Positions 1,415 to 20,136 of a stretch of 64,000 nucleotides of DNA are shown here, in pieces (position 1 is the stretch's first letter; each line of letters opens with the position of its first letter). This DNA is from Clostridia bacterium. GTDB taxonomy: Bacteria; Bacillota; Clostridia; Christensenellales; CAG-138. The translations under genes were made by a program, and so were the position numbers. The stretch covers positions 1 through 64,000 of the forward strand of contig QKAN01000031.1 in NCBI GenBank assembly GCA_003246365.1, in the 5' to 3' direction. Below the pieces are notes generated by a model. It saw only the letters and a list, made by a program, of their open reading frames with translations. It did no database searches and was not told the DNA's origin.

Positions 1415-3034
1415 TTATGACTCCAGCATCCGCTTGATTGCGCAAGCCAGATAAAGATCGTTCGCCTCGGGCATTTTGGTAACCGGATAGCAAAGCCGCT
1501 CATTGATGCAGCGAATTCGATATTTAATGGTGTTTTTATGGAGAAACATCAGCTCTGCCGTTTTTGCGATATTGCTGTTCGCTTCCAGCAGAAACACTTC
1601 TAACGTCGTCAGTAGCTCTGTTTGCCGGTTTTCCTCGTTGGTTGTCAGCAGTTCTATGTCCTTTAGTTTGCGTTTAATTGCATCCTCACCGGAAGCGATG
1701 AGCTCGCTGCATGCTTCCGCAAACAGAATTTCATGCAACGTCAGCTGCTTTTTATGGAAAAATATCTTCTTTGCGTTTTCAATATGTTTCGAAACCGACA
1801 GATACGCCTGCCGGACGTCTGTTGTTGTCTCCATGTTATAGCAGGCAACGAGCATCGCGTCTATTTCGCTCTGCGCAAGCGTGTCCTCCAGTTCGTTCGC
1901 CAGCGCGGAACTGTTTTCGATTGCAAGTTGTTTGTCCAAAAATACAATGATTGATCCGTCATACACATCTATGATCAGCGTTCGGCAACGGTTCTTTAAG
2001 ATGCTTTTTGCTATTTCAAGAATTTGATTTTGTATGAGCTTCTCGTTGTCGCCCTCGCTCATCCTTTTGCTTGGCTGAATGATCCACATCTTGTTGATTG
2101 ACGCGACATCAATCTTAAAATAGTTCGCAAGCCGCCGCATATTCATAGGCTCATCGTTTAATATTGCCTGCACCAATTCGCTCATCACGAATTCCGAATG
2201 TTTGCTGTTCCAGATGTTAACCGACAATTTGACCAGTTCGTTGGTATGCCGCAACAAATTCGTACTGAGTGGATAATTTTCCTTTATGATAAACAAATGC
2301 ATTTGCGTCTTTTCGTTCCAGATTAGCGGCATTTGGTGCAGCCATGCATCCGTTTCATGCAGTCTGATCTGCGTCGGTTCGCTCGGCAGCGCCGAATCCA
2401 GCTGCTCAATGATCTCGTCCAGATTTAAATCGAGCGTGCGCGGCCAGGCTACGAAATTCAGCACGTTAAAGGATAAATCTGTCAGAAACAACGATATATG
2501 CAGTCGGTCGCTCACCATTCTAAGTACGGTTTCAATGTTCCTTTGTCCCCTCGGCAGATGGGAAACGCGCTCCAATATCTCGTTCGCAAAATAGATATTC
2601 GTGTTCTGGTCCTTGAAGATTGCTTCCATCACTTCGGATATCGCTTCGCTGTAGCGAAGATTCATCCGGTTTTTCGGCATGCAAATCAGCACAAAATCAA
2701 GCTCGTTTGCCAGATCGATCAGTCTTTTGTCAACGGACGGCATAAAGATTCCAACATAATAAAGAATCAAGCCGACCTCGCCGACCTGTGCCATCCGCCT
2801 GATATTTGCTAGCTGCGCTTCAACGTTGTCTTTCACGTTAATCAAGCCGGAAATTACGATTTCTCCGCCGCTGAACTCGTTGTTGTTAAACAGATCATCT
2901 TGCAGCGAGTTTACATCCGCATATTCGAGCACAGAAATTGAAGCCACAATCTTATAAAGTCCGCCGTGTCCGGCGAGTACTTCCGATTCTCTCAAGCAAG
3001 GCAGCTCCAATAAATCCTTGACCGTTACGCTCAT
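1415..3034 (-). CDS. PucR-family transcriptional regulator
   Basis: A 539-residue regulator of the PucR/CdaR type: an N-terminal PucR ligand-sensing domain (about residues 1-125, opening MSVTVKDLLELPCLRESEVL), a central region, and a C-terminal helix-turn-helix of the PucR type near residues 485-530 (motif FLEAN.NIAKTAE, then HKNTIKYRI). PucR proteins control purine, hydantoin and related nitrogen-compound catabolism. It is divergent from the permease-DUF917-hydantoinase operon with a 269-base spacer, so it most likely controls that operon and perhaps itself. A 9-bp perfect inverted repeat in the spacer is a candidate operator. Family firm; effector unknown. Confidence 0.93.
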   Translation of the reverse strand: MSVTVKDLLELPCLRESEVLAGHGGLYKIVASISVLEYADVNSLQDDLFNNNEFSGGEIVISGLINVKDNVEAQLANIRRMAQVGEVGLILYYVGIFMPSVDKRLIDLANELDFVLICMPKNRMNLRYSEAISEVMEAIFKDQNTNIYFANEILERVSHLPRGQRNIETVLRMVSDRLHISLFLTDLSFNVLNFVAWPRTLDLNLDEIIEQLDSALPSEPTQIRLHETDAWLHQMPLIWNEKTQMHLFIIKENYPLSTNLLRHTNELVKLSVNIWNSKHSEFVMSELVQAILNDEPMNMRRLANYFKIDVASINKMWIIQPSKRMSEGDNEKLIQNQILEIAKSILKNRCRTLIIDVYDGSIIVFLDKQLAIENSSALANELEDTLAQSEIDAMLVACYNMETTTDVRQAYLSVSKHIENAKKIFFHKKQLTLHEILFAEACSELIASGEDAIKRKLKDIELLTTNEENRQTELLTTLEVFLLEANSNIAKTAELMFLHKNTIKYRIRCINERLCYPVTKMPEANDLYLACAIKRMLES

Positions 3035-3182
3035 ATGTTACCTCATTTATAACTCGTCTTTGCCATATGCTTCACTTCGAAAACACGAAATCAGCAGGCT
3101 TTGCCGCTTAAACATTCTGAATTTTCTTCATTTGTCACAGCCTTGGTTGATTATAGCACAGTTCGTTCTGTTTTTAGGAAAG

Positions 3183-3204
3183 CTTTTGTCCAAAAGGACA
3201 AAAG
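3183..3204. promoter_or_regulatory. Perfect inverted repeat in pucR/permease spacer (candidate operator)
   Basis: CTTTTGTCC (3183-3191) and GGACAAAAG (3196-3204) flank AAAA. It lies between divergent genes and upstream of an AT-rich TATATA/TATTATA stretch (about 3250-3267) that probably holds the permease -10. No T-run follows on either strand, so an operator is more likely than a terminator. Confidence 0.5.
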
Positions 3205-3303
3205 CAAGCGAAAATAATTTACCTTATGACCGATTACAACCTTGCCAAAAATATTATATATATTATACCAAAATAAAAAAGTTGCACGAAATGGGAGGTA
3301 ATT

Positions 3304-4602
3304 ATGTCTGATAAGGGAACAAGTACTTTTTCAGGATTTGAAATCAAGCCTGAACAGAGGCAAGGTTGGGTGAGCCTTGCTATGATCTGGATCGGCGCGA
3401 TGATCTGCGTGCCGTGCCTCATGGTTGGCGCATATCTTGGCATGGGATTCAAGCTTAGCGGCGTAATCACCTGCATCCTGATCGGTTACGGTATCGTCTG
3501 TACATACATGTGCTTCATGGGCATGCAGAGCTGCGATACAGGTCTGCCGACCGTATCCATGGCTTCCGGCCCGCTCGGCACAAAGGGCGCACAGTATATC
3601 ATCAGCGCGCTTCTTGCCATCGCATGCGTCGGTTGGTTCGGCGTTCAGTCCGCCGTTTGCGGCGCGTCGTTTTCAGCGATGATCGCTTCCATGACCGGTT
3701 TCGTTATTCCTGCGTGGGTTTCGAGTCTTGTCTGGGGCGCGCTCATGCTCCTGACAGCCATGTACGGCTATAAAGCGCTGAAATACTTAAACTTCATCGC
3801 TGTTCCCGCGTTGATTGCGGTTCTCATCTACGGATTGTATGCCGCTATCGCAAAGAACGACGGCATCGCGGCGGTTGCCGCCTATACCCCGTCCGTTCCG
3901 ATGACGCTTGTACAGGGTGTAAGCCTTGCGGTTGCAACCTTCGCGCTCGGCGGCGTTATCAGCGGCGACTATTCCAGATATGCTAAAAATCGCGGAGACG
4001 TGGTCAAATCCAGCGTCCTCGGCGTTGTTCCCGCCGGTCTTGCCATGATGGTGATCGGCGCCGTTTTGACCATTGTCACCGGACAGTATGACATCAGCGC
4101 CGTTCTGGCGGCTGTCGGCGTTCCGGCGTTCGGCCTCATCGCGCTCGTTCTGGCAACATGGACCACAAACGTCACCAACGCTTACAGCGGCGGTCTGGCA
4201 TTCTCCAGCCTGCTCGGCGTTGGCGCAAAGAAATTCAAACTGACAACCGGAATTGCAGGCGCAGCCGGAACCATCCTTGCGGCAGTCGGCATCATGAACC
4301 AGTTCCAGGGATTCCTGAGCATCCTGACCGCGTTCATTCCGCCGGTAGCGGGTGTCATCATTGCCGATTACTGGATCATCGGCAAAGGCAAAAAAGAGAA
4401 CTTCAAGATCACGGAAGGATTCAACTGGGTCGGCATCAGCGCATTTGCGATTGGCGCAGTGGTTGCTTACTGCACCGCCAACGTACCCGCTCTGGTCTTC
4501 TTTGTGGGTCCGATCAACGGCATCGTCGTTTCCATGGTTGTTTACACCGCAATCAAGCTGATCGCTCGTTCCTCGAAAGCGGCTCCGGCGGTTGCCGAGT
4601 AA
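3304..4602 (+). CDS. NCS1-family permease (CodB-like purine/cytosine/hydantoin transporter)
   Basis: A 432-residue polytopic membrane protein with about 12 hydrophobic segments, of the nucleobase-cation-symport-1 family and closest in character to cytosine permease CodB (opening with a polar stretch then GWVSLAMIWIGAMI, and a conserved GDYSRYAKN motif near residues 220-228). It would import a cyclic nitrogen compound (cytosine, hydantoin or allantoin type) with a cation. GGGAGGT lies just upstream of ATG 3304. It is the first gene of the operon with the DUF917 and hydantoinase-like genes, which argues for a cyclic amide other than cytosine, since no cytosine deaminase is nearby. Confidence 0.92.
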   Translation: MSDKGTSTFSGFEIKPEQRQGWVSLAMIWIGAMICVPCLMVGAYLGMGFKLSGVITCILIGYGIVCTYMCFMGMQSCDTGLPTVSMASGPLGTKGAQYIISALLAIACVGWFGVQSAVCGASFSAMIASMTGFVIPAWVSSLVWGALMLLTAMYGYKALKYLNFIAVPALIAVLIYGLYAAIAKNDGIAAVAAYTPSVPMTLVQGVSLAVATFALGGVISGDYSRYAKNRGDVVKSSVLGVVPAGLAMMVIGAVLTIVTGQYDISAVLAAVGVPAFGLIALVLATWTTNVTNAYSGGLAFSSLLGVGAKKFKLTTGIAGAAGTILAAVGIMNQFQGFLSILTAFIPPVAGVIIADYWIIGKGKKENFKITEGFNWVGISAFAIGAVVAYCTANVPALVFFVGPINGIVVSMVVYTAIKLIARSSKAAPAVAE

Positions 4603-4625
4603 AGAAAGAAACAAACTTCTTTCAG

Positions 4626-4645
4626 GGGGACGGTACGCCGTCCCC
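4626..4645 (+). terminator. Intercistronic hairpin after the permease gene
   Basis: GGGGACGG (4626-4633), loop TACG, CCGTCCCC (4638-4645), followed by TATTTATC. It may partly terminate or protect the permease message; the next gene follows 66 bases later on the same strand. Confidence 0.5.
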
Positions 4646-4711
4646 TATTTATCGGTCAAAGCATACCTCGTATGCAAAGCAAAACTTCATCCCTAAAAGG
4701 AGAGCTGAAAA

Positions 4712-5815
4712 GTGAGAAAAATTGGATTAAAAGAAATAGAAGACATCGCGCTGGGCGCGGCGCTGCTGGGCGCAGGCGGCGGCGGTGATCCGTATGTCGG
4801 CAAGCTCGTTGCCATCGGCGCGGTCAAGGAATGCGGCGAAGTTACGATGCTGAGCGTCGACGAAGTACCCGACGACGCACTCGTCGTGCCGATCGCCATG
4901 ATGGGCGCGCCGACGATTCTCAGCGAAAAAGCCGTTGGCGGAAACGAATACAAAACGCTGTTTGAAATGGTAACCCGTTTTTATAACAGAGAGATTTTTG
5001 CCTTTATGCCGATCGAAGCCGGCGGCGTAAACAGCATGCTTCCGATTGCCGCGGCTGCAAGGCTGAATCTGCCGTTGATCGACGCGGACGGCATGGGTCG
5101 CGCATTTCCGGAGCTTCAGATGGTCACCTTTACCATCGGCGGCGTAAGAGCCACCCCGATGGCGCTGGTCGACGAAAAAGGAAACAGCGTTATCTTCGAC
5201 ACCATCACAAATAAATGGACAGAAGAGCTCGCGCGTTCGGTGACCATGAGCTGCGGCGGCTCGGTTTCCGTTTCGCTGTATTGCATCGACGGCGCAACGC
5301 TCAAAAAATACGCGGTTCGGGATATCGTAACCAGAAGCGAAAAGCTCGGCGCGGCAATTCGAACCGTGAAACAGACAACCGGAAAAACACCCGAAGAGAG
5401 TTTCTTCGAGTTCACAGAAGGCTACAAGCTGTTTAAAGGAAAAATCGTCGACGTGTTGCGGGAAACACGCGGCGCGTTTAACTTCGGCAAAGTTGTTTTA
5501 GACGGCATCGGTGAGTTCAAAGGGCAGTCTGCGGATGTAGAATTTCAAAACGAAAATCTCGTGGCGCGCGTCAACGAAAAAATTCTAGCGACAACGCCGG
5601 ATTTGATCTGCATCGTTGATACCGAAACGTTCACCCCCGTCACAACGGATGCGCTGAAATACGGCAAGCGCGTTATGGTTGTCGGACTCAAATGCTTTGA
5701 TATGTGGCGAACGGAAAAAGGGCTGGAGCTCGTCGGCCCGCGCTATTTTGGTTGCGAAACGGATTATATTGCCATTGAGGAACGCTGCAAGCAAGGAGAA
5801 GAGAAACATGTATAA
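4712..5815 (+). CDS. DUF917 family protein (S-methyl-thiohydantoin-desulfurase-like)
   Basis: A 367-residue protein of the DUF917 family, recognisable by the Gly-rich opening ALGAALLGAGGGGDPYVGK and by the motifs EAGGVNSMLPI and DADGMGRAFPELQM. Some DUF917 members are linked to (thio)hydantoin desulfuration and others sit beside hydantoinase genes; most are uncharacterised. The start is GTG 4712, supported by AAAGGAGAG about 8 bases upstream. Its last 8 bases overlap the start of the hydantoinase-like gene, so the two are probably translationally coupled and act on the same compound. No signal peptide or membrane segment. Family call strong; reaction inferred only. Confidence 0.85.
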   Translation: MRKIGLKEIEDIALGAALLGAGGGGDPYVGKLVAIGAVKECGEVTMLSVDEVPDDALVVPIAMMGAPTILSEKAVGGNEYKTLFEMVTRFYNREIFAFMPIEAGGVNSMLPIAAAARLNLPLIDADGMGRAFPELQMVTFTIGGVRATPMALVDEKGNSVIFDTITNKWTEELARSVTMSCGGSVSVSLYCIDGATLKKYAVRDIVTRSEKLGAAIRTVKQTTGKTPEESFFEFTEGYKLFKGKIVDVLRETRGAFNFGKVVLDGIGEFKGQSADVEFQNENLVARVNEKILATTPDLICIVDTETFTPVTTDALKYGKRVMVVGLKCFDMWRTEKGLELVGPRYFGCETDYIAIEERCKQGEEKHV

Positions 5816-7355
5816 ATTGGGAATTGACGTAGGCGGCACGAATACGGACGCCGTTCTCATTGACGAACAGCTTAATGTCATCGCCGAGCTAAAGCAGCCG
5901 ACCAGCGAGGATATATACAGCGGCATTATCAGCGCAATTCGGAAAATTCTCGAGCAATCCGGCGTGAGTCCGAAGGAAATCAAACAGGCAATGCTCGGAA
6001 CGACGCAGTGCACAAACGCGATTGTTGAACGCAAAAAACTCGCGAAAATCGGTATTCTCCGTTTGGGTGCGCCGGCAACGGTTGGAATTCACCCAATGGT
6101 TGACTGGAGCGCGGATCTGAACTTTATCGCCGAGAAAACAGAGATCATCGGTGGCGGTTTCGAATATGACGGCAAAGCGATTGCGCCGTTTGACCGACAG
6201 GCCGCCACAGAGTTTTTCACCGCATTAAAAGGCAAGGTAAATGCCGTTGCCATCAGCTGCAGTTTTTCCACCGTTCGCAGCGATCAGGAAACCGAAGCAG
6301 CCGCGCTCTGCAAGGAAATTATGGGGCCGGATGTGCATGTATCCGTTTCCAATGAAATCGGCTCTATGGGATTGATCGAGCGCGAAAACGCGACCATTCT
6401 GAACGCCGCGCTGCACGTAGTTGCGGAAAGCTTTACCAACGGATTTGCGCGTAGCTTACAGGAGATGGGTATCACGGAAGCGGACGTCTATCTATCCCAG
6501 AACGACGGAACGCTCATGACCATGGAATACGCCAGAAAGTACCCGATTCTGACAATCGCTTGCGGGCCGACAAACTCCATCCGCGGCGCAAGCTATCTGA
6601 GCGAAATGAAAAACGCCATCGTCATCGACGTCGGCGGAACAACGACCGATCTCGGCGTCATTACAAACGGATTCCCGCGCGAAAGCTCCGTTGCCGTCAC
6701 CATCGGCGGTGTCCGCACAAATTTCCGTATGCCGGACGTGATCTCCATTGGTCTCGGCGGCGGTTCCATTGTTCGCGAAAAAGACGGCGTCATTACGGTT
6801 GGCCCCGATTCCGTCGGCTTCGAAATTACGAAAAAGGCACTGTGCTTTGGCGGAGACGTCATGACCGCGACCGACATCGCCGTAAAACTCGGCATGGCGG
6901 ATATCGGAGACAAATCGCTCGTTGCCGGAATCTCCGATGAAACGGCACAAAAAGCGCTGCAAGTCATTCGCGAGCTGGTGGAAAACAGCATCGACGCGAT
7001 GAAAATTTCGTCCGACGATGTGGACGTCATTCTCGTCGGCGGCGGTTCGGTTATTCTGCCGGAAACGCTCAAGGGCGCGAAAACCGTTCATATGCCGGAG
7101 CATTTCGGCACAGCGAATGCCATTGGTTCGGCCATCTCAAAGGTCTCCGGAACGTATGAGCAGCTGATCAATTATGACGAAATCCCGCGCGAGCAGGCGC
7201 TTGAGCAGGCAAAAAAAGACGCGATCGAATTGGCCGTCACGTCCGGCGCGCGCCGCGATACCGTCGAGATTATCGACATCGAAGACGTGCCGCTTGCCTA
7301 CTATCCCGGCAATACAAGCCGCGTCAAGGTAAAGGCCGCAGGCGATCTAAACTAA
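5808..7355 (+). CDS. Hydantoinase/oxoprolinase family protein (HyuA-like, short form)
   Basis: A 515-residue protein with the ASKHA-type ATPase fold of the hydantoinase A/oxoprolinase family: phosphate motif GIDVGGTNTDAVL at residues 5-17, second motif VIDVGGTTTDLGV in the middle, and a Gly-rich GLGGGSIV segment. ATP-dependent relatives open hydantoin or 5-oxoproline rings. ATG 5808 is preferred to an upstream in-frame start because AAGGAGAAG lies just before it and the family begins here. It is shorter than two-subunit N-methylhydantoinase A proteins (about 690 residues, from memory) and no HyuB partner is in the window; DUF917 takes the neighbouring place. Confidence 0.9.
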   Translation: MYKLGIDVGGTNTDAVLIDEQLNVIAELKQPTSEDIYSGIISAIRKILEQSGVSPKEIKQAMLGTTQCTNAIVERKKLAKIGILRLGAPATVGIHPMVDWSADLNFIAEKTEIIGGGFEYDGKAIAPFDRQAATEFFTALKGKVNAVAISCSFSTVRSDQETEAAALCKEIMGPDVHVSVSNEIGSMGLIERENATILNAALHVVAESFTNGFARSLQEMGITEADVYLSQNDGTLMTMEYARKYPILTIACGPTNSIRGASYLSEMKNAIVIDVGGTTTDLGVITNGFPRESSVAVTIGGVRTNFRMPDVISIGLGGGSIVREKDGVITVGPDSVGFEITKKALCFGGDVMTATDIAVKLGMADIGDKSLVAGISDETAQKALQVIRELVENSIDAMKISSDDVDVILVGGGSVILPETLKGAKTVHMPEHFGTANAIGSAISKVSGTYEQLINYDEIPREQALEQAKKDAIELAVTSGARRDTVEIIDIEDVPLAYYPGNTSRVKVKAAGDLN

Positions 7356-9164: not shown

Positions 9165-9200
9165 AAAAAAATGAGCCGACTAACTGTCGGCTCATTTTTC
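9165..9200. terminator. Bidirectional terminator
   Basis: ATGAGCCGAC (9171-9180), loop TAACT, GTCGGCTCAT (9186-9195), with an A-run before and a T-run after. It serves the small gene on the plus strand and the isomerase-like gene converging from the minus strand. Confidence 0.9.
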
Positions 9201-9212
9201 TTATTTTATTTT

Positions 9213-10421
9213 TTACGCTTCTCTGTTCAGTAACTTGAACAACTCGTCGATTTCGTCAACCCAGTCGCCTTTAACGATCATGTGGTGATTACTGATCGGC
9301 CCATGCGCGAAGTAGTCCACTCCATCAATCATGTTCAAACGCATCTGCGTCCGGCACAAATCCGCCCTATGTGGGGTCTCCAGCAGTTCTGCGCGCGCCG
9401 CATAATGCCGCGTCATCGAATCGTTGCACTTGAACACCGTTACCATACCCTGCTTTAGATCGCCGGCAACAGCAACGCCGATGCCCGACTCAAAATGCGT
9501 CGTCAGGTTATAACTGTCCGGCATATCGATCGGTAGCGTGCAGTGTGCAAAAATGATCTCGCTCGTTTCCGCATCCATACAACTGGGGTTTGCCATAAAG
9601 GAAGAAAGACCTGTCACCGAGTTTAGAATGACCATGCTCGCGAGACTCTTTGTGTCTCCTTCGCATGCGGCAGGAATTCCCTGTGCGTTGAGAATTGCCA
9701 ATGCAAGACATCCGGTCGTCTGAATCAGGCTCAGTAGTTCGAAACAGCGCACCGTAACCGCCTGCAGATTGTATTTTTCAATCATCCGGCAGGTCGCGCC
9801 GTAAACGTTCAGCGCTTTCTCAACCTCTTCCGGCGCATATCCGGTCGCTTTGAGTTCCTGTGTCAGTTCGTTTTCGGGATATCCGCCTTTGTGATATTCC
9901 TCTACAAGCTCAGTTAGCGAAAGGTCGATCAGTTCCATTCCTGTGGCGGCGCGCAGTTTCTCGGCATCTGCCTCGCTCGCAATCAAACCGGAAGGTTTTC
10001 CAATTGCGCCGAGCCGAAGCCCGTTGATCTTCCGTTTTGCGTTTGCCGCACGCAGTAATACGCCAAGGCGCTTTGCAACGGTCTCTATAGAACCATGCAA
10101 AATCTCACCCGGTTCGCCTTGCTCGTCCAAATACCCCATAATCTCCATCGCCGCGGCGAGTGAGTTATAGGCAGGTGTGGTCAGCAGGATATATGGCGGC
10201 TTTGCCGCCCGATAATTCGAGAGAAATCCCATTTCCGCACCGCCGGATGCGATAAAGAACACAGGAAGCTCCTGCGAAACAACTTCATCCAGCGATCCGT
10301 TGCTCACGCGAACGCCGAGCGCTTTGCTCAATTCGCCTAAGAATTCATCGCTGTATGCGGGTATGTTCGGATCGTTGCAATCGACAGGACCCATCAAAAA
10401 AAATACTTTCAGTTCATCCAT
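9213..10421 (-). CDS. L-fucose/L-arabinose isomerase-fold protein
   Basis: A 402-residue protein resembling the L-fucose isomerase-like family: an N-terminal Rossmann-like half (KVFFLMGPVDCNDPN, then ASGGAEMGFL), and a C-terminal half with the metal-site-like motif CEGDTKSLASMVILNSVTG and a late HGPISNHHMIVKGDW segment. Such proteins interconvert aldoses and ketoses, but family members next to nucleoside salvage genes have no assigned substrate. ATG 10421 is preferred (AGGAGAGAG about 7 bases upstream) over a start 6 codons earlier. It is the last gene of the ECF operon, so it may act on the sugar released from an imported nucleoside. That role is inference. Confidence 0.78.
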   Translation of the reverse strand: MDELKVFFLMGPVDCNDPNIPAYSDEFLGELSKALGVRVSNGSLDEVVSQELPVFFIASGGAEMGFLSNYRAAKPPYILLTTPAYNSLAAAMEIMGYLDEQGEPGEILHGSIETVAKRLGVLLRAANAKRKINGLRLGAIGKPSGLIASEADAEKLRAATGMELIDLSLTELVEEYHKGGYPENELTQELKATGYAPEEVEKALNVYGATCRMIEKYNLQAVTVRCFELLSLIQTTGCLALAILNAQGIPAACEGDTKSLASMVILNSVTGLSSFMANPSCMDAETSEIIFAHCTLPIDMPDSYNLTTHFESGIGVAVAGDLKQGMVTVFKCNDSMTRHYAARAELLETPHRADLCRTQMRLNMIDGVDYFAHGPISNHHMIVKGDWVDEIDELFKLLNREA

Positions 10422-10457
10422 CGTTTCTCTCTCCTGCATTTTTCGATATGCTATCTG

Positions 10458-11201
10458 TTATTTCGCCGCGTCTGCACGAATCAACGTGCGCAGCGCTTCA
10501 ACGGCGATTGTGATTGTCTGATCCATGCTCTGGAAAGACATAACCGCGCCGGCGCGGCATTTGCGAATTGCCGAAACAACAAACAGCGCTGCGGTTTCCA
10601 TTTCGGACGCCATGACGTTTCCGCCGCGCCATGCCTCCCAGCGTTCCTTGAGGCGCGGTCCGTTGGGCAATCCGTCCGGATCGATCTGCCCGTAAAAAGA
10701 ATCCTTGCACTGCACGATTCCTTCCGCATAATTAAACCCGTGCGCAACCGCCGCATCCGACAATGCAGCAACGATATGCCTGTTTGCAATCGCGGGATAC
10801 TCGATCGGAATATATTGCGGGGTTGTTCCCTCGTCCCGCACAGAACCGGTTACGATAACGCCCTGCAGCGCTTCATCCATCGATTCGTCGCATACGCGTC
10901 CGGCTGTGCCGATTCGAATGAATGTATTCGCGCCGCATTGAATCAGTTCTTCCAGCGCAATCGCCGCGGAAGGGCACCCCATGCCCGTCGAAGTCACCGA
11001 AACGGGCACGCCGTCCAATGTTCCGGTCCAGGTTTTGTGTTCGCGGTTATGCGCAACGAGCACCGGATTATCAAACCGCTGCGCGATAATGTCCGTACGA
11101 AACGGATCGCCCGGAAGCAGCACATAGCGGCCTACGTCGCCCTTTTTGCAGCAAATATGATAGTGAAGTTCTTTCTCGTTGAGGCATTCCATGCAATCCA
11201 T
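10458..11201 (-). CDS. Nucleoside phosphorylase (uridine/purine phosphorylase family, NP-I)
   Basis: A 247-residue NP-I phosphorylase: phosphate-binding LLPGDPFRTD (about 28-37), STGMGCPSAAIALEEL (about 71-86), the ribose/base motif IRIGTAGRV and the ribose-binding ASEMETAALFVV near residue 200. It cleaves a nucleoside with phosphate to base plus (deoxy)ribose-1-phosphate. The overall pattern is nearer uridine phosphorylase than purine nucleoside phosphorylase, but the base specificity is not certain. It lies between the ECF ATPase gene and the isomerase-like gene with gaps of about 20-35 bases, so it probably processes what the ECF transporter imports. Confidence 0.9.
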   Translation of the reverse strand: MDCMECLNEKELHYHICCKKGDVGRYVLLPGDPFRTDIIAQRFDNPVLVAHNREHKTWTGTLDGVPVSVTSTGMGCPSAAIALEELIQCGANTFIRIGTAGRVCDESMDEALQGVIVTGSVRDEGTTPQYIPIEYPAIANRHIVAALSDAAVAHGFNYAEGIVQCKDSFYGQIDPDGLPNGPRLKERWEAWRGGNVMASEMETAALFVVSAIRKCRAGAVMSFQSMDQTITIAVEALRTLIRADAAK

Positions 11202-11222
11202 AGTTCGCTCCTTAAATCTGTT

Positions 11223-12035
11223 TTATTGTTCGCAGGCGGCGCAAATTAAATCGACCGCCTCGTCCATTTGAGTTACGCTGTTCGACAAGCCCAGCGCACC
11301 GCAAATGCGGCTAACATACGGCTGCTTCAGCATCGCTTCGTCCAGCGCAGGCAGGTTCCAGAACACTTCCTTCGGTTTACCATCCAAAATTACTTTCTTA
11401 TTGGACATGACGATCACGCGGGAAAAGTTATCCGCAACAAAAACCATGTCGTGCGATATCGTAATCAGTGTTTTGCCCTTTTCTGCGAGGTCGCGCAAGA
11501 TGCGGGAAAGTCTCTTGTTCCCGTTAAAATCCTGCCCTGCGGTAGGCTCGTCAAAGATCAATACATCGCAGTCCATAGCAATGATTGCCGCGATGGTAAC
11601 AAACTTGCGCACCGAGAGCGGCAGATTGTATGGATTTTCCTCGCGGAAGCGCTTCATGCCCGTGATTTTGAGCGCGTAATCGACCAGTTCTTTTACCTTT
11701 TCTTCGGGAAGTTTCATCATGCGCGGACCAAATTCCACTTCCGCTAACACGGTGGAATGAAAAATCTGGTCGTCGGGGTTTTGAAATACATAGCCGACTG
11801 TGCGGGAAACCTGCGCGGTGGTTCTCCCCTTTGTGGTTTTTCCATCAATGATGACGTCTCCGTCTGTCGGGTAATGCAGCGCGTTGAGCAGTTTTACCGT
11901 TGTGGTTTTCCCCGCTCCGTTCTGCCCGACGATTGCGACATTTTCTCCCTTTTCAATGGAAAACGATACGCCGTCCACCGCAAGGTGACCGTCCGGATAA
12001 GCGAAACGAACGTCTTTTAATTCAATGTATGCCAT
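11223..12035 (-). CDS. ECF transporter ATPase with atypical signature motif
   Basis: A 270-residue CbiO/EcfA-type ABC ATPase energising the ECF module. Walker A GQNGAGKTT is at 37-45, the Q-loop FQNPDDQ at about 84-90, Walker B VLIFDEP at about 158-164 and the H-loop ISHDMVF follows. The ABC signature, normally LSGGQ, reads LSVRK (140-144), while the paired ATPase has an intact signature; one of the two composite ATP sites may therefore be degenerate. It follows the second ATPase gene after only 3 bases and precedes the phosphorylase gene. The subunit role is clear; the substrate is not shown by the ATPase. Confidence 0.92.
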   Translation of the reverse strand: MAYIELKDVRFAYPDGHLAVDGVSFSIEKGENVAIVGQNGAGKTTTVKLLNALHYPTDGDVIIDGKTTKGRTTAQVSRTVGYVFQNPDDQIFHSTVLAEVEFGPRMMKLPEEKVKELVDYALKITGMKRFREENPYNLPLSVRKFVTIAAIIAMDCDVLIFDEPTAGQDFNGNKRLSRILRDLAEKGKTLITISHDMVFVADNFSRVIVMSNKKVILDGKPKEVFWNLPALDEAMLKQPYVSRICGALGLSNSVTQMDEAVDLICAACEQ

Positions 12036-12038
12036 ACG

Positions 12039-12899
12039 TCATTTGCCTCCTTTTTGAACGGCCTTACCGATTACTTCAAGCGCCTGCGCTTCCGTAATCG
12101 GAATATAGTCCAGCGCAACGCCGCGTTGCATCAGCTGTCCGCCGAGCACCGCGTACTGCGGCAGCTGAACACCCTGTTCTTCCAGAGAAAGGTCGGAGAG
12201 AATCGATTGTTTGTCTCCAAAGCGAATCATTTCGCCGCCTTTGAACACCATGATTTCATCGGCAAATTCCGCCAGCAAATCCACTTTATGCTCGACCAGC
12301 ACGATGGTTTTCTTCTGTTTCTTGAGCATTTCGATAATTTCGAATACGCTCTCCGTACCTTCCGGGTCAAGCTGGGACGTTGGCTCGTCGATGACAAAAA
12401 TACTCGGGTTGAGCGCAAGTACGGAAGCGAGCGCAAGGCGCTGCTGCTGTCCGCCTGAAATTTCGAACGGGTTCTTCATCGCGAGAGATTCAATCTTTGT
12501 CTGCCGCATAACGTCAACAACGCGGTCTTCGATTTCATCGACAGGCGTGCCGAAGTTTTCCAGTCCGAATGCGATTTCCTCAAATACCGTATCCTTCACG
12601 CCGCTGATCTGGTTAAACGGATTTTGAAACGCAAACCCGATGCGAAGCGCCAGTTCTCCCGGCCCGTATAGAAGCGTTGATTTTCCGTCAACGAGTACTT
12701 CGCCTTTGAGTTCTCCCTGATAAAAACTCGGCGCAAATCCGCGCATCAGGGCGCAAAGCGTGGTTTTGCCGGAGCCATTGGCTCCGATTACGCCGTAAAA
12801 CTTGCCTTCTTCTATTTTTAAATTGAGGTTTTTAATCGCAGGCCGCGACGTCAGCGGGTAATTGTATGTTACATCCTTCAGTTCGATTACCGTACCCAT
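12039..12899 (-). CDS. ECF transporter ATPase (EcfA-type)
   Basis: A 286-residue ABC ATPase, partner of the preceding one: Walker A GANGSGKTT (39-47), Q-loop FQNPFNQ (about 91-97), intact signature ISGGQQQR (147-154) and Walker B IFVIDEP (167-173). ATG 12899 is used rather than an upstream in-frame TTG because GGAGGG lies 7 bases before it. The start overlaps the EcfT gene by 13 bases, indicating translational coupling within the S-T-A-A operon. Confidence 0.93.
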   Translation of the reverse strand: MGTVIELKDVTYNYPLTSRPAIKNLNLKIEEGKFYGVIGANGSGKTTLCALMRGFAPSFYQGELKGEVLVDGKSTLLYGPGELALRIGFAFQNPFNQISGVKDTVFEEIAFGLENFGTPVDEIEDRVVDVMRQTKIESLAMKNPFEISGGQQQRLALASVLALNPSIFVIDEPTSQLDPEGTESVFEIIEMLKKQKKTIVLVEHKVDLLAEFADEIMVFKGGEMIRFGDKQSILSDLSLEEQGVQLPQYAVLGGQLMQRGVALDYIPITEAQALEVIGKAVQKGGK

Positions 12900-13723
12900 T
12901 GCAAGACCCTCCAAACCAGAAATACAAGCGACAACGCACAGGTAATGATCAGCGCCAACGGTTCGTATCCGTTTTTCGTTACCTCAAACACTCTTGTCTT
13001 TTTGCAGGTTGTGTCAAATCCTTTCGACTCCAGCGTGAGCACGCGCTCCTCTGTGTTCGTAACGGCGCTGAGCACAAGCGGCACGATGGACGGAAAAAAC
13101 GCACGCATACGCACGAGTAAATTTCCCTCGGTTTCAACGCCGCGCGCGCGCTGCGCGTTCATAATCGTCTTGCTGTTTTTGCCGAGTACTTCAATCATCT
13201 GCAGGGAAGACATGAATACGTAAGTCGATTTGTAATGCATGCCGCTTTTTTCAAGCGCACGGGAAAGCTCTTTGTTCTCTGTCGTTTGAAACATCCAAAC
13301 GAAAATGCCTGCAACATTCATGATGTTCATGGAAAGTTCGATGCCGTTTTGCAAGCCGTATTGGTAGATCGTCGGCGCAATGACAAACGGTTTGTCCGTA
13401 ATATACCAGCGCACCAGCTCGACAATCGGTTTCCCTTCTCCCGCAGTTTGCACTAAAAACGCCTGCAGAAGAATAATCATAGATGCAACAAGCAAGACTT
13501 TTGAGATTGCTTTCCAAAATCTTGCGAGCGTTACTCCGCTCAAAAATGTCAGCGTTGGTACAATCAGAAACCACGCAAACAATAAATACGCATATCCGTC
13601 AAAACGAATGCTTGCAATGATTCCCGACATAACGGAATAGATCAATACAATCCAAAGTTTTGTCATCGGATACAACGATGCAATCGGGTTTTTCTTTGTT
13701 ACCTGTATCTGTTCAATGTACAT
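12887..13723 (-). CDS. ECF transporter transmembrane component EcfT
   Basis: A 278-residue EcfT/CbiQ-family protein with about five hydrophobic segments and the cytoplasmic coupling-helix region near residues 160-215 (including MNAQRARGVE, the Ala-Arg-Gly motif that docks on the ATPases). It links the S component to the two ATPases. It starts at ATG 13723, 108 bases after the S-component gene; that gap holds a strong GC-rich hairpin that may set different expression of S and T subunits. Confidence 0.93.
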   Translation of the reverse strand: MYIEQIQVTKKNPIASLYPMTKLWIVLIYSVMSGIIASIRFDGYAYLLFAWFLIVPTLTFLSGVTLARFWKAISKVLLVASMIILLQAFLVQTAGEGKPIVELVRWYITDKPFVIAPTIYQYGLQNGIELSMNIMNVAGIFVWMFQTTENKELSRALEKSGMHYKSTYVFMSSLQMIEVLGKNSKTIMNAQRARGVETEGNLLVRMRAFFPSIVPLVLSAVTNTEERVLTLESKGFDTTCKKTRVFEVTKNGYEPLALIITCALSLVFLVWRVLQWVR

Positions 13724-13750
13724 ACTGGTTCAGCTCCCATTTCATCACAT

Positions 13751-13786
13751 AAGGCGGGACGCGGACACGCCGCCCGCGTCCGCCTT
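13751..13786 (-). other. GC-rich hairpin between ECF S and T genes
   Basis: AAGGCGGGACGCGG pairs with CCGCGTCCGCCTT with one bulged base. No T-run follows on the minus strand, so it is more likely an mRNA processing or stability element, or a partial terminator, than a full terminator. Confidence 0.55.
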
Positions 13787-13831
13787 TGGGGAATAATCAG
13801 ACAGATCGAAATTCAGAAAAAGTGGTTTCTA

Positions 13832-14491
13832 TTATTCTTCTTCTTCGCTTTCCGCTTCTTCTCTGGCTGCTTCAGCCGCTGCGCGCGCTTTTTTCGAAAT
13901 ATAGAATTCGCCGCAGCTATACTTGACGAGCGTCCGCATCGGGATCACCTTAATGATGAGCCAGCAGATGAAGTAGGAAATGATACGGTCGAGTACCGTG
14001 AAGATGAGCTCAACGCTGATAACAGACTGCCAGATGCTCTTTCCGGAAGCCATCAACGTTGCGGTCAGAAGAGAAGTGCCGCCGCCGGTGATGCCGCCGA
14101 ATACAAGAACTACGATCGGAGCGGCGGAGATAATGGAAGCCAGCGCCATGAGCACCATGGAGATGATCCATTTCCACCAGTTGCTGAACATGTTGCCTCT
14201 GGAGAGGAAACCAGTGACGAGACCGACAATGATGTTAACCGGGATAAAATAGAAGTTAACCGGATTTGCAATGCCCGTGACAACGTTTGTCAGAGCGCCT
14301 GCGACCGCACCAACCCAGGGACCGGCGAGCATACCGGCAAGGATCGTACCGATCGTATCGAGATAGAACGGGAGTTTCAGCAAAGATGCCAACTGTCCGC
14401 CGACGAAATTGATCGCAACCGCAATCGGGATCAGCAGCAGAGCAACCATGCTGAAGTCATTTTTGAGGGTATACTTCTTCTTGAGTTCCAT
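13832..14491 (-). CDS. ECF transporter substrate-binding S component (CD3073-like)
   Basis: A 219-residue integral membrane S component with about six hydrophobic segments, fitting the group I know as the CD3073-type putative ECF S component, whose relatives lie beside CD3072-type desulfidase genes as here. It should bind the imported substrate; neighbouring phosphorylase and hydrolase genes suggest a nucleoside. ATG 14491 is preferred because GGAGG precedes it by 11 bases; an ATG six codons upstream has no site. The C-terminal 20 residues are an odd run of Ala, Glu, Arg and Lys ending in EEEE, a soluble charged tail. Substrate is inferred, not shown. Confidence 0.86.
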   Translation of the reverse strand: MELKKKYTLKNDFSMVALLLIPIAVAINFVGGQLASLLKLPFYLDTIGTILAGMLAGPWVGAVAGALTNVVTGIANPVNFYFIPVNIIVGLVTGFLSRGNMFSNWWKWIISMVLMALASIISAAPIVVLVFGGITGGGTSLLTATLMASGKSIWQSVISVELIFTVLDRIISYFICWLIIKVIPMRTLVKYSCGEFYISKKARAAAEAAREEAESEEEE

Positions 14492-14582
14492 GTGTTCTTG
14501 TACCTCCATCCTTTTTTATATCAACATGATTATCATGTTGGATACCCAAACGAAGAATGCGAGAATTGCGCGAAAATACTCT

Positions 14583-15731
14583 TTATGCGGCAACCGTACG
14601 GTCGGCGCGGCGCATATACGCCATGATCAACGCCGCAGCAAAGCTAAGCCCGGCAATGATAAAGTACAGGCTGCGCGGTTCACCGATTGTCAGATAATAG
14701 CTGATTGCCGGTTGAAAGATCATTCCGCCGATGCCGGAAGAAAACACGATGAGCGAAAACGACGCGGCGGCAGCGTCCGAGAAACGCTGCGCTGCCAGAA
14801 AAGCAACGCTGCCGTAGACCGGCGCAAACGCGAGGCCGACGAGCACCACGGCGATAATTTTAAATATCGCCCCGGGCAGCAGCGTCAGGAGCAGGCAGCC
14901 GAGCGCGGCAAGCGAAAAATAATACGGCATAATGAGCGAAGGCGAGCGGAAAAGACTGCCGATCAAACGCCCGAATATGCTGGCAAACCAATACGCCGAA
15001 AGCGCAAACGCGCCATAAGTACCGATCCCCTGTCCGGTAAAGTAACTGCCAATCCAATATGTCACGGCAGTTTCTGATCCGACAAAGATGATCATGACAA
15101 GCATATAAAGCAGCATATACGGACTGCGCAGCAGGCGAAGGATTACAGCGCCTTCTTCCCGCTGCTCGCGCGGCTGCGGTTCGCCAACGCCGCGTGAAAC
15201 CAGCCAGTAGATCGAAAATCCAATATAGCTGCAGGCAATGATAGCATAAGCCGGACGGAATTCGTCTTGCTTGAGCAGCAGCGAGAGCAAAATCGGCGTA
15301 ATCACAGCGCCGACGCTGAAAATCGCCTGTGTCAGGTTCAGCGAGCGGTTTGCGTTTTCCCCGTTATGTTCCGAAATCAGCGCCATTGCGCAGCTTTCAT
15401 ATCCCGCGCTGCCGATGCCATAAACCAGGAATCCGGCAGTTACAAAAAGAATGCTGGACGAAACGGTTATCATAACCGCCCCGATAGCAACGATAAACGC
15501 GGTGATAATCGCGGTAAACCGTTTTCCTTTTCGCTGCGCAAGTTCGCCAAAAAAAAGCACCGCGATCACGCACCCAAAGTATAGTGCACTAATCATGTTG
15601 CCCATTTGCGTTTGACTTGCGCCGAGCGCAGTCGATATATTGTTAACGAGATTCTGATTGGCCGCGAAAAAGCAGCCCATCAAAGCGAAAATTAGAATTG
15701 CGGCACGATTGAAGTGTTTCCTGTTTTGCAA
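14583..15731 (-). CDS. MFS transporter
   Basis: A 382-residue major facilitator with about 12 hydrophobic segments and the loop motif GELAQRKGKR between helices 2 and 3. It is upstream of the ECF S gene on the same strand with a 91-base gap, and divergent from the nucleoside hydrolase gene, so it may move the same family of compounds or export a product. The start is uncertain: TTG 15731 keeps the first helix intact, with GGAGAT some 14 bases upstream. Substrate not predictable from sequence alone. Confidence 0.85.
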   Translation of the reverse strand: MQNRKHFNRAAILIFALMGCFFAANQNLVNNISTALGASQTQMGNMISALYFGCVIAVLFFGELAQRKGKRFTAIITAFIVAIGAVMITVSSSILFVTAGFLVYGIGSAGYESCAMALISEHNGENANRSLNLTQAIFSVGAVITPILLSLLLKQDEFRPAYAIIACSYIGFSIYWLVSRGVGEPQPREQREEGAVILRLLRSPYMLLYMLVMIIFVGSETAVTYWIGSYFTGQGIGTYGAFALSAYWFASIFGRLIGSLFRSPSLIMPYYFSLAALGCLLLTLLPGAIFKIIAVVLVGLAFAPVYGSVAFLAAQRFSDAAAASFSLIVFSSGIGGMIFQPAISYYLTIGEPRSLYFIIAGLSFAAALIMAYMRRADRTVAA

Positions 15732-15802
15732 CGCACGTAGTATTATCTCCGAAATCAGATTTACGTAATCATATCACGGTGCTTTTAAAAATGCAACCAT
15801 GG

Positions 15803-15824
15803 GTTATCTGTTTTTAAGGATAAC
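15803..15824. promoter_or_regulatory. Inverted repeat between MFS and nucleoside hydrolase genes
   Basis: GTTATC (15803-15808) and GATAAC (15819-15824), 10 bases apart, in the 176-base divergent spacer. It may be a shared operator; the arms are short, so support is modest. Confidence 0.35.
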
Positions 15825-15907
15825 GTTTTTTGTATTTTTCGTTTGCATTGTTTTTTGCGAAATATTGTGCTAACCTCTGAATCATCAATTCTTCAGGAGT
15901 GCATGTT

Positions 15908-16846
15908 ATGAATCGACAAAAGATTATTATCGACACGGATTGCGGCTCTGACGACGCAATGGCAATCGCCATGGCGCTGCGGGATGAGCGGTACGAAGTG
16001 CTTTTTTTCTCCGCTTGCTCCGGCAATGTCTGCGCCGATCAGGCTGTAATCAACACCCTGACCACCATTGAGTATGCCGCAACTTACGAGCCTCCTGTCT
16101 ATCTCGGCTCATCGCTCCCGCTCGTAAAAACGCTTGCTTTCGCGCACGAAACGCACGGCAACGACGGCATGGGAGACATCGGTCTTGTTCCGTCGCGCTT
16201 GCAGCGCGCGGAAGGAAACGGCGTTTTAAAAACGCTCGAAGCGCTTGAGCAAAGCGAACCCGGGGAAATTGAAATCGTTGCACTCGGGCCGCTGACCAAC
16301 CTTGCGCTCGCGATTCGCCTGAATCCGGAAGCGATGCGGCGCGTGAAGCGCATCTCCATCATGGGCAGCGCAGGACTCGGCACGGGAAACGTGACTCCCG
16401 CTTCGGAGTTCAACATTTGGCAAGACCCGGAGGCCGCAAAAATTGTTCTTGAATCGGGGTTGCCGCTGATGCTTGTCGGTTGGGATGCCTGTCTTGATGA
16501 ATCGATGCTCAATCCCGATGAAATCGCGCGCATTCGCAGCAGCGGCGCACTCGGTCAGTTTGCTATCGACTGTAACCGCTGTCTGATGGAGATGAACGCG
16601 GGGCGATTTGGCTACAACTGTCTCGACATGGCGGACCCGGCTGCGATGGCCGCCGCGCTGCATCCCGAATGCATCGACGTGTGTGACGCGTACTATTGCG
16701 AGGTTGATACGAGCAGCGGAATCAGCAGCGGAGCGGTGCTGGTGGATGTCTATGGCTTCTCTGGAAAAGAACCAAACACGCTTGTGTGCTCCAAGCTGAA
16801 AAGCGACATATACAAAGATTATATTTTTAGGATGCTCGGCGCATAA
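15908..16846 (+). CDS. Nucleoside hydrolase (IUNH family)
   Basis: A 312-residue ribonucleoside hydrolase that splits a nucleoside into base and ribose using a bound calcium. The N-terminal metal motif reads DTDCGSDDA (residues 9-17), with Cys where most members have Pro. The late motif usually HDP reads MADP: the Asp is kept but the preceding His, which protonates purine leaving groups in some members, is Ala. GTG 15899 is in frame, but ATG 15908 fits AGGAG (15895-15899) better. It is divergent from the MFS/ECF operon and next to the desulfidase and TenA-like genes. Family firm, base specificity unknown. Confidence 0.92.
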   Translation: MNRQKIIIDTDCGSDDAMAIAMALRDERYEVLFFSACSGNVCADQAVINTLTTIEYAATYEPPVYLGSSLPLVKTLAFAHETHGNDGMGDIGLVPSRLQRAEGNGVLKTLEALEQSEPGEIEIVALGPLTNLALAIRLNPEAMRRVKRISIMGSAGLGTGNVTPASEFNIWQDPEAAKIVLESGLPLMLVGWDACLDESMLNPDEIARIRSSGALGQFAIDCNRCLMEMNAGRFGYNCLDMADPAAMAAALHPECIDVCDAYYCEVDTSSGISSGAVLVDVYGFSGKEPNTLVCSKLKSDIYKDYIFRMLGA

Positions 16847-16870
16847 GAGAGCGAATCTCTTGTAACTACA

Positions 16871-17422
16871 TTAATCCAGCAAAGAAAGAATCTTGTGCGG
16901 TTCATCGGCAAACAAACCTTTGAGCGGCAAATCGATTCCTTCCTCTTGCAGCATATCGCGCAGTTCCTGCATCATGATGCCCGACCCTTCGACAAGGCGC
17001 GCGCTCGCAATTACCTCCGGCAAATCGTTCCGGTCTCCCAGATTTCCGCCCCATTCGCCTTTGCAGGTATAATCGACGCCGCAGCTCGGGCTTCCGTCTA
17101 TTCCGACAATACCGATCACTTCGAACCGACCGGAATTTGCAAGATATTCCTTGAGCTGTAAGACGATTTCCGTCAGCATTCTGCGGCATTCTTTTCTGAA
17201 ATACGGGGTATCGAACTGATCGGAAACATGTCCCCAGCGTCGACTTCCATAAAGAACAAACTCCGGGCACGGCAACTGAATGATCTGTATGCCGTCCGCC
17301 AATGCTTTTTGCAGAAACTTCCCGCGGAGCGCTTCTTCCGCAGCCATCTCCGCTTCGTTATACATAACGACCTTCGCCGCCGTATTCAGCACGCAATGCG
17401 CTGCAAACAACACTTTTTGCAT
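16871..17422 (-). CDS. TudS/DUF523-related putative desulfidase (CD3072-like)
   Basis: A 183-residue protein related to thiouracil desulfidase TudS (DUF523), a [4Fe-4S] enzyme that removes sulfur from thiouracil. The three cluster cysteines are recognisable: C10 (AAHCVLN), C52 in PCPE and C114 in GSPSCG. It matches the group I recall as CD3072-family TudS-related desulfidase, which accompanies CD3073-type S components. ATG 17422 is chosen because GAGGAG lies 7 bases upstream; an 87-residue longer frame runs back through the promoter. It is divergent from tenA and converges with the nucleoside hydrolase gene. The exact thio-substrate is unknown. Confidence 0.85.
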   Translation of the reverse strand: MQKVLFAAHCVLNTAAKVVMYNEAEMAAEEALRGKFLQKALADGIQIIQLPCPEFVLYGSRRWGHVSDQFDTPYFRKECRRMLTEIVLQLKEYLANSGRFEVIGIVGIDGSPSCGVDYTCKGEWGGNLGDRNDLPEVIASARLVEGSGIMMQELRDMLQEEGIDLPLKGLFADEPHKILSLLD

Positions 17423-17467
17423 ATTCTTCTCCTCGTAGACCGATTCCGCTGCGCGGGTGTCGCCTCG

Positions 17468-17496
17468 ATTGTAGCAGAATCCTCCGATAGCGGCAA
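17468..17496 (-). promoter_or_regulatory. Promoter of the TudS-related gene
   Basis: On the minus strand TTGCCG (17496-17491) and TACAAT (17473-17468) are 17 bases apart, with TGC just before the -10. It lies in the divergent spacer with tenA and supports the start at 17422. Confidence 0.7.
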
Positions 17497-17523
17497 CTAT
17501 ACTTCCGCAGAAAGGAACCGAAC

Positions 17524-18219
17524 ATGAATATTTACGAAGAACACCTGCTTCCCATGATTCAAACAACCTGCGCCGCGCTTGAAAACACGCCGCAAATGCA
17601 GGAAATTCTCCATGGCGATATGCCGATGGAACGCTTCCGCTGGCAAATTCGTCAGAATTATCAGTATTTGCTTGAGTACACAAAAACTTGGGCGATCGGG
17701 TTTGTCAAGGCGCAGGGGTTTGACGAAATGCAATTCTGGTATTCCATTGTGAAATCCACATTTGAAGATACCGTCGCGATGAATCGCACGTTCTGGGCGG
17801 ATCAAATCGGAATCACGACAGAGGATCTGGAATCGACGATCATGGCTGAAACAAAGAGAAGCTATACGTCTCACGAATTGGCGCGCGCATTCGAAGGCGA
17901 TCTTGCCGTGTGTTTGATGGGCCTCTTTCCCTGCAACGTGCTATATATGCACTTGGGCAACGATCTGCTGCCGCAATGCACGCTTGAAAAAGATAATATG
18001 TTCTACAAATGGATTGAGTTTTATACGCTTCCCGCCTATCGCGCAAAATGTGCAAAAGAGATCGATATGATCAATTGTCTCTGCGAGAAAAAGAGCGAGC
18101 AAGAGTTGCGCAGACTGCTTGAAATCTTCGCTGTCGGTTGTAATTACGAGCTGCTCCAGTGGCGCGATATGTACTATAAAATGGAAACATGGCCCCTGGA
18201 AGAGATCTTTCCGAAATAA
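17524..18219 (+). CDS. tenA: TenA-family protein (aminopyrimidine aminohydrolase/thiaminase II-like)
   Basis: A 231-residue all-helical TenA-like protein. The catalytic cysteine of thiaminase II is retained at C137 (LFPCNVLYMHLG) and the C-terminal glutamate at E209 (NYELLQWRDMY), so an active hydrolase is likely. Known TenA enzymes hydrolyse aminopyrimidines derived from thiamin. No thiamin gene or THI-box riboswitch is seen here; instead the neighbours are a desulfidase, a nucleoside hydrolase and an ECF transporter, so it may act on a different aminopyrimidine or modified base. The start is ATG 17524 with AAAGGA upstream. Confidence 0.88.
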   Translation: MNIYEEHLLPMIQTTCAALENTPQMQEILHGDMPMERFRWQIRQNYQYLLEYTKTWAIGFVKAQGFDEMQFWYSIVKSTFEDTVAMNRTFWADQIGITTEDLESTIMAETKRSYTSHELARAFEGDLAVCLMGLFPCNVLYMHLGNDLLPQCTLEKDNMFYKWIEFYTLPAYRAKCAKEIDMINCLCEKKSEQELRRLLEIFAVGCNYELLQWRDMYYKMETWPLEEIFPK

Positions 18220-19592: not shown

Positions 19593-20069
19593 TTATTCCT
19601 GATAATCGTGTTCCATGATCGCCTGATACGCCGTTTTATGGAATTCGACAAACCGCTCCGTCTGCCCGTCCCCAAAGTTGCTGCCGAGGAATTCTTCCGC
19701 CATTTGGCAGCCCGTATACGGCGCAACATAAAACCCGCCCATCGCGAGGATGTTGCAATTGTTCGCAACAACGCAGCGTTTCGCCGCGGGCAGACTTTCG
19801 CAAACGGCGCATTGCACACCGGGAAACTTGGCGGCGGCAAGGTGAATACCCATACCCGAGCCGCAGAAGAGCAAGCCGCGCTCAAATTCGCCTTTGCTCA
19901 CCGCGCGACCCACGCGGAATCCTACTTCCTGAAACGGAATCTTGATCTCTTTGTCGATGATTCCAACGTCCGTAATTTCATAGCCCTTGTCTATTAAATG
20001 CGCTTTGACCGCTTCTTTTAAATCAAACCCAGCGATATCGGCGCCGATGATAACCTTGTTTGTCTGCAT
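19593..20069 (-). CDS. RpiB/LacAB-family sugar-phosphate isomerase with altered active site
   Basis: A 158-residue member of the ribose-5-phosphate isomerase B / galactose-6-phosphate isomerase family. The catalytic Cys is present in CGSGMG (69-74), but the usual DHAG motif reads DIAG (11-14) and the usual HN.AN motif reads ANNCN (102-106), so both histidines used by RpiB are missing. The enzyme probably acts on another sugar phosphate or has a different mechanism. ATG 20069 has AAGGAGC upstream; a longer frame to 20195 is not supported. It lies between the 2-hydroxyacid dehydrogenase and MFS genes. Confidence 0.85.
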   Translation of the reverse strand: MQTNKVIIGADIAGFDLKEAVKAHLIDKGYEITDVGIIDKEIKIPFQEVGFRVGRAVSKGEFERGLLFCGSGMGIHLAAAKFPGVQCAVCESLPAAKRCVVANNCNILAMGGFYVAPYTGCQMAEEFLGSNFGDGQTERFVEFHKTAYQAIMEHDYQE

Positions 20070-20136
20070 AATTTTGCTCCTTCCACTCTCACCTGAAAAA
20101 TATAATTCTATTTTAATGAACGAAATAAACGAAAAA

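Follow-up and report, generated by a model that had tools for sequence, protein, structure and literature searches.

The 64,000-nucleotide window analysed here, contig 189 of a draft Clostridia bacterium genome (3.4 Mb, 87% complete), carries at positions 9213–18219 a cluster of ten genes whose products very probably import and cleave nucleosides. The cluster combines an importer of the energy-coupling factor (ECF) type with a nucleoside phosphorylase, a nucleoside hydrolase and a candidate [4Fe-4S] desulfidase of the CD3072 family. Taken together, we favour, with some reservation, the view that the genes serve thiouridine salvage, whereby thiouridine would be imported, cleaved and desulfurated to uracil. 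The individual parts are of known kinds; their combination with dedicated ECF import is new, and dedicated import of sulfur-carrying nucleosides appears to be undescribed so far. Gene conservation, the protein families, the desulfidase catalytic residues, the nucleoside context of the importer and a genomic upp gene are read directly from the sequences.

The importer and the conserved gene set

An earlier account of this stretch, made from its letters (the sequence-only reading), had claimed a complete ECF transporter, a nucleoside phosphorylase and a nucleoside hydrolase. Open reading frames together with Pfam and NCBIfam scans of 9213–18219 confirm all of these, and the ten genes are open at the positions given below. 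The S component (13832–14491, minus strand, as are the other ECF genes), the T component of the CbiQ family (12887–13723) and two ATPases, A1 (12039–12899) and A2 (11223–12035), are all present and make up an ECF transporter with its own module.

The S component is of the nucleoside type and forms a sister group of the curated family CD3073. An assignment to CD3073 itself was dropped, since the protein scores 120.5 bits against a curated cut-off of 180 and falls into a separate group in the S tree. S components were surveyed across the phylum, in 398 genomes. Each of the 12 above the CD3073 cut-off lies no more than about 3 kb from a CD3072 gene, and hardly any pair of CD3073 proper and CD3072 has nucleoside enzymes around it. 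The S components in the below-cut-off range of the window protein come mostly from genomes with no CD3072 match. A uridine-phosphorylase-like gene adjoins the ECF genes in 12 of 20 CD3072-free loci. Genes for a hydrolase, a ribokinase, RbsR/CytR/UriR-like regulators or an AraA/FucI-like protein are also present at some of these loci. When 66 S components were placed in a tree, the window group of 13 (support 98) joined these CD3072-free, nucleoside-linked proteins, not CD3073 proper.

The second ATPase provides a further marker. While A1 has the canonical signature SGGQQQR, the LSGGQ of A2 is replaced by a degenerate LxLSxRKxxxIA (LPLSVRKFVTIA in the window), and the same replacement is found in the nucleoside-linked loci (L240–L257); the readable CD3073-proper operons encode an A2 with the normal motif. 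At the sequence level, the CD3072-free S relatives and the A2 signature independently point to an ECF importer for nucleosides. Genes for uridine phosphorylase, hydrolase and ribokinase thus accompany the importer subfamily even in the absence of a desulfidase, which upholds the earlier proposal of nucleoside-type import, and we conclude from these comparisons that the subfamily is predicted to import nucleosides, most likely of the uridine type. The degenerate motif also suggests an asymmetric ATPase pair. A literature search found no paper on a nucleoside ECF importer and none on CD3073.

The wider gene set was followed through the relatives of the desulfidase, which were collected as 80 loci with named organisms; the distant search was seeded with seven proteins, a 22-protein set having no usable conserved stretch. 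In a tree of 82 CD3072 proteins, the window protein belongs to a supported clade (100/91) of 23, drawn from Bacillota, Spirochaetota, Actinomycetota and Chloroflexota. At a distance of up to 9.5 kb from the desulfidase gene, a nucleoside phosphorylase is found at 13 of the 23 clade loci against 1 of the 58 outside, and the counts for the nucleoside hydrolase are the same. AraA/FucI-like genes and TsgA-type carriers of the major facilitator superfamily (MFS) each occur at 9/23 clade loci compared with 0/58, ribokinase (RbsK) at 8/23 compared with 1/58, and TenA-like genes at 5/23 compared with 0/58. The Fisher values, 4e-8 to 1e-3, are overstated because the relatives share ancestry; yet the gene order varies between members. 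At L068, the genes run AraA/FucI-like, hydrolase, phosphorylase, MFS, A2, A1, T and S, followed by CRP, the desulfidase and a ribokinase above the NCBIfam cut-off, and a phosphopentomutase-superfamily (metalloenzyme) protein is encoded as well. At L079, from Sporanaerobium hydrogeniformans, hydrolase, desulfidase, S, T, A1, A2, MFS and phosphorylase are consecutive on one strand. The sequence-only reading had staked itself on these genes being conserved together. The clade-specific association, with its differing gene orders, therefore shows that they are, and judged from these genomes the gene set is not a chance neighbourhood. The literature search likewise found no paper on the full set, as had been stated.

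Other CD3072 clades have MalFG-type, Ssu/NMT1-type or polar-amino-acid-type ATP-binding cassette (ABC) importers instead. Pairing with several importer types makes the family a general partner of uptake systems, and the notion that CD3072 always means nucleosides was dropped. In the neighbourhood survey suggested earlier, the whole set proved to be confined to one CD3072 clade; most CD3072 genes accompany other importers and lack nucleoside enzymes. The MalFG-type importers with substrate-binding proteins, often joined by a HAD phosphatase (L067, L076, L077, L080, L082, L085, L086, L108, L113 and others), would take up some other presumed thio compound by an unrelated route.

The candidate desulfidase and the accompanying enzymes

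The candidate desulfidase (16871–17428, minus strand) scores 162.7 bits, above the curated CD3072 cut-off of 130, and 16.4 bits against Pfam PF04463 (TudS/DUF523 proper), below the gathering score of 34.7. Its three cluster cysteines are present as previously described, but the numbering C10/C52/C114 becomes C11, C53 (in PCPE) and C115 (in SPSCG) from the frame start used here. In TudS, Glu45, Ser101 and Ser103 are catalytic besides the three [4Fe-4S] cysteines (PMC10611767). Correspondingly, C11, C53, C115, E55 and S112 are invariant in 22 relatives, and S114 is found in the window protein and most relatives, with Thr or Asn in the rest. The top four matches to the predicted structure (mean predicted local distance difference test score 87.8) are all TudS (6z92, 6z96, 6zw9 and 6z93; Z 8.2–8.5 over 136–139 residues at 3.8 Å), with the next at 6.5. 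Foldseek returned no match under E 0.001 for the model against the PDB, TudS being ranked first by the second aligner, and the CD3072 profile gave no real match to PDB sequences; its comparison with DUF523 proteins gave 96%. Judged from model and sequence, the protein keeps the TudS fold and catalytic residues, in agreement with the TudS/DUF523-like identity assigned before, and its chemistry is probably that of a desulfidase acting on a thiocarbonyl. Elsewhere in the window genome, a canonical TudS is encoded, as well as a second CD3072-family protein (L053 1027–1575, contig 132), whose gene lies upstream of those for a MiaB-like methylthiotransferase, mutS and mutL.

The phosphorylase (10458–11201, minus strand) is an NP-I enzyme whose nearest solved relative is the Streptococcus pyogenes uridine phosphorylase 3qpb (223 bits). 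The uridine-type base-pocket motif KDxFYGQ is kept in 13/13 cluster phosphorylases, which argues for a pyrimidine base in the clade; against the uridine phosphorylase equivalog TIGR01718, the window enzyme reaches 242.1 bits, below the cut-off of 280.3. The hydrolase (15899–16846, plus strand), an IUNH enzyme of RihC-like type, keeps the calcium site DxDxxxDD (DTDxGxDDA), which reads DTDCGSDDA in all cluster members.

The TenA-like protein (17524–18219, plus strand) has the catalytic Cys and Glu claimed for it: Cys135 and Glu205 of thiaminase II are present as Cys137 and Glu209. However, Asp44 of TenA, which contacts the normal substrate at its 4-amino group (PMC5623701), is replaced by Asn (Asn45 in the window) in 6/6 cluster-type TenAs, whereas 28/28 others have Asp. 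One Asn-type copy was found outside CD3072 clusters, at L186 9686–16618, with a nucleobase permease and two amidohydrolases. The substitution suggests a shift to a 4-oxo, uracil-type pyrimidine. It thus disfavours the deamination step of the sequence-only reading, for which no evidence was found, and opens the possibility of side-chain hydrolysis, a role that we regard as doubtful. A normal TenA cleaves a 5-aminomethyl-type bond on an aminopyrimidine. It is still somewhat less likely that the cluster completely dismantles hypermodified wobble nucleosides of tRNA, those of the mnm5s2U/cmnm5s2U kind, with ECF import, glycosidic cleavage, 2-thio removal by CD3072 and 5-aminomethyl hydrolysis by the TenA variant; the Asn would then adapt the variant to a ring with a 4-oxo group in place of the 4-amino group. 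In four members (L069 2422–3483; L074; L079 7115–8194; L084), a URO-D/MtaA-like methyltransferase gene adjoins the cluster. All four are without a TenA-like gene, and the methyltransferase is possibly another route to trim a methylated base.

The AraA/FucI-like protein (402 residues; 9213–10421, minus strand) belongs to the 'FMANP' subfamily and has the AraA isomerase fold (match to 2ajt, Z 27.6, 397 residues, 3.5 Å). A profile built solely from the AraA-like proteins of the cluster detected no solved relative, and AraA came up once ten more diverse sequences had been included. Its Glu254, His293 and His380 align with Glu306, His350 and His450 of AraA, whose metal ligands we take to be these three and Glu333. 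Such genes occur in other nucleoside operons as well, for example with a pyrimidine-nucleoside phosphorylase, cytidine deaminase and phosphopentomutase at L200. A second copy in the window genome (L196 50–7432, contig 173) lies with genes for a BMP-type ABC importer and a nucleoside hydrolase, as part of another nucleoside uptake operon.

A proposed route and its alternatives

In the route that we propose, the ECF-type importer would take up a sulfur-modified uridine freed by RNA turnover, either 4-thiouridine or a 2-thiouridine of the tRNA wobble position. Base and sugar would be split by the uridine-phosphorylase-like enzyme, giving ribose 1-phosphate, or by the hydrolase, giving ribose. The CD3072-type desulfidase would then release the sulfur of the thiocarbonyl group as sulfide and yield a uracil-type base; in some members, the TenA-like hydrolase might trim a side chain of the base. 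The base could be converted to UMP by uracil phosphoribosyltransferase, whose gene upp is over cut-off in the window genome, and the sugar to ribose 5-phosphate via ribokinase or phosphopentomutase. In this scheme, we infer the thio substrate, the order of the steps, the release of sulfide and what the TenA-like and AraA-like proteins do.

Several points weigh against thiouridine salvage as drawn. The candidate substrate and chemistry are predicted from sequence, and the S-tree split that places the window protein with the nucleoside-type S components has a support of 88 and is not starred. The clade counts are not independent, given the common descent of the relatives. Since the majority of CD3072 genes stand beside unrelated importers, without nucleoside enzymes, the clade's link is to nucleosides, and its link to thio compounds is one of homology. 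Arg17 of TudS binds the phosphate and Tyr18 stacks on the base (PMC10611767); TudS proper prefers 4-thio-UMP and does not specifically bind 2-thio compounds. These positions are Lys18 and Val19 in the window protein, with Lys or Val at the Arg17 position in relatives, so that the specificity of TudS is not transferable to it; an altered substrate, perhaps an unphosphorylated nucleoside or base, would fit dedicated import. The active-site His of the HDP motif in the hydrolase is replaced, giving ADP in 11/11 aligned cluster members, and the base contact of these hydrolases thus differs from that of standard enzymes. The position of AraA Glu333 is Ala or Asn throughout the 'FMANP' subfamily. With this metal ligand missing, isomerase activity is not to be assumed, and the earlier suggestion that the isomerase uses the released sugar is doubtful. 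Neither a ribokinase over cut-off nor deoB was found in the 87%-complete window genome. Overall, the sequence-only reading is borne out in the co-conservation, the nucleoside-type importer and the TudS-like desulfidase, but not in the deamination or the use of the sugar by the isomerase, and the S component is not CD3073 proper.

The loss of Arg17 and Tyr18, together with the MalFG-, Ssu/NMT1- and polar-amino-acid-type importers of CD3072 relatives, which indicate that substrates may be diverse, would also suit a nucleoside salvage cluster in which CD3072 acts on some other thio- or selenocarbonyl compound, such as a thiopurine, a selenouridine or a non-nucleoside thioamide. We consider this unlikely, the uridine-type motif of the phosphorylase pointing to a pyrimidine base. 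Alternatively, these might be ordinary genes for uridine import and breakdown, with the desulfidase a neighbour by chance and no substrate in common. Such a view gains from the desulfidase gene of the window lying on its own strand and in its own transcription unit, and from the 10/23 clade loci, some on short contigs, that have no phosphorylase nearby. It is nevertheless decidedly unlikely in view of the strong clade-specific association across four phyla, with a phosphorylase at 1/58 loci outside, and of the uninterrupted single-strand order at L079.

The TenA-like gene and the ECF importer, along with sulfur, could also recall salvage of thiamine or its fragments. This is very improbable: the window and the cluster surroundings of seven relatives gave no Rfam riboswitch match, the thiamine pyrophosphate (TPP) riboswitch included, TenA lacks the aminopyrimidine-binding Asp (PMC5623701) and is absent from 18/23 loci, and thiamine salvage does not need a nucleoside phosphorylase, hydrolase or ribokinase. 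More improbable still is salvage of the queuosine type, a pathway known to use the QueT/QrtT ECF importers and the hydrolase QueK (PMC11130926); the window S component matches CD3073-like and not QueT models, the phosphorylase is of the uridine type, and a desulfidase has no place in the queuosine pathway.

Should thiouridine salvage prove correct, the cluster would define the first predicted family of nucleoside ECF importers, with the degenerate second-ATPase signature as its sequence marker. It would, in addition, be the first uptake route dedicated to sulfur-modified nucleosides, found in bacteria of the gut and of anaerobic digesters. Curated NCBI families named 'putative', one of them in Clostridioides difficile, would gain a candidate ligand class, and the turnover of tRNA in anaerobic communities would be connected with the release of sulfide.

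Surroundings of the cluster and known systems

The genes for S, T, A1, A2, the phosphorylase and the AraA/FucI-like protein form, in this order, a minus-strand run of six. The gaps from T to the AraA/FucI-like gene are −13 to 36 bp; S is separated from T by 108 bp and from the MFS gene (14583–15731, minus strand) directly upstream by 91 bp. The MFS carrier, whose best NCBIfam match is a distant one to TsgA, is possibly a product exporter or a second importer. Beyond it, the hydrolase, desulfidase and TenA-like genes are separate units. The minus-strand operon is bounded at its 3′ end by a terminator-like palindromic hairpin of 14 pairs at 9167–9199 (no strand assigned), a consensus match only; promoter consensus sequences did not occur more often in the window than in shuffles. 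Near the cluster, a LacAB/RpiB-type ribose/galactose isomerase (19593–20081) could take released pentose phosphate. Directly to the left (1415–7355) lies a hydantoin-type operon encoding a PucR-type regulator, an NCS1 nucleobase permease, a DUF917/S-Me-THD protein and a hydantoinase-A-like protein; as the Pfam name of DUF917 is S-methyl-thiohydantoin desulfurase, this may be a second system for sulfur/nitrogen heterocycles. In a Treponema genome (L059 898–3296), a YjjI-type glycyl radical enzyme and its radical SAM activator are encoded between desulfidase and phosphorylase.

Several known systems resemble parts of the cluster. The window desulfidase shares with TudS, a desulfidase of thiouracil and 4-thio-UMP (PMC10611767), the fold, the three cluster cysteines and the catalytic Glu and Ser, but is below the Pfam cut-off, does not keep Arg17/Tyr18 and is tied to dedicated importers. 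RudS, a TudS fused to DUF1722 (PMC11417400), also has a TudS-type desulfidase domain, in its case acting on thiouridine; it works on tRNA, whereas the window protein is without DUF1722 and sits with an importer. The S. pyogenes uridine phosphorylase (3qpb) shares KDxFYGQ with the window enzyme, which is under the equivalog cut-off and whose substrate is predicted. QueT/QrtT and QueK (PMC11130926) similarly combine an ECF importer and a nucleoside hydrolase for a tRNA-derived nucleoside; unlike them, the window has a pyrimidine-type phosphorylase, a desulfidase and ribose enzymes, not queuosine enzymes. Finally, the NCBIfam pair CD3072 (NF045597) and CD3073 (NF045596) carries the label 'putative' and no assigned substrate. 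The desulfidase of the window passes the CD3072 cut-off; the accompanying S component is below that of CD3073 and groups elsewhere, with the nucleoside-linked importers, and nearly no CD3073-proper pair has nucleoside enzymes nearby.

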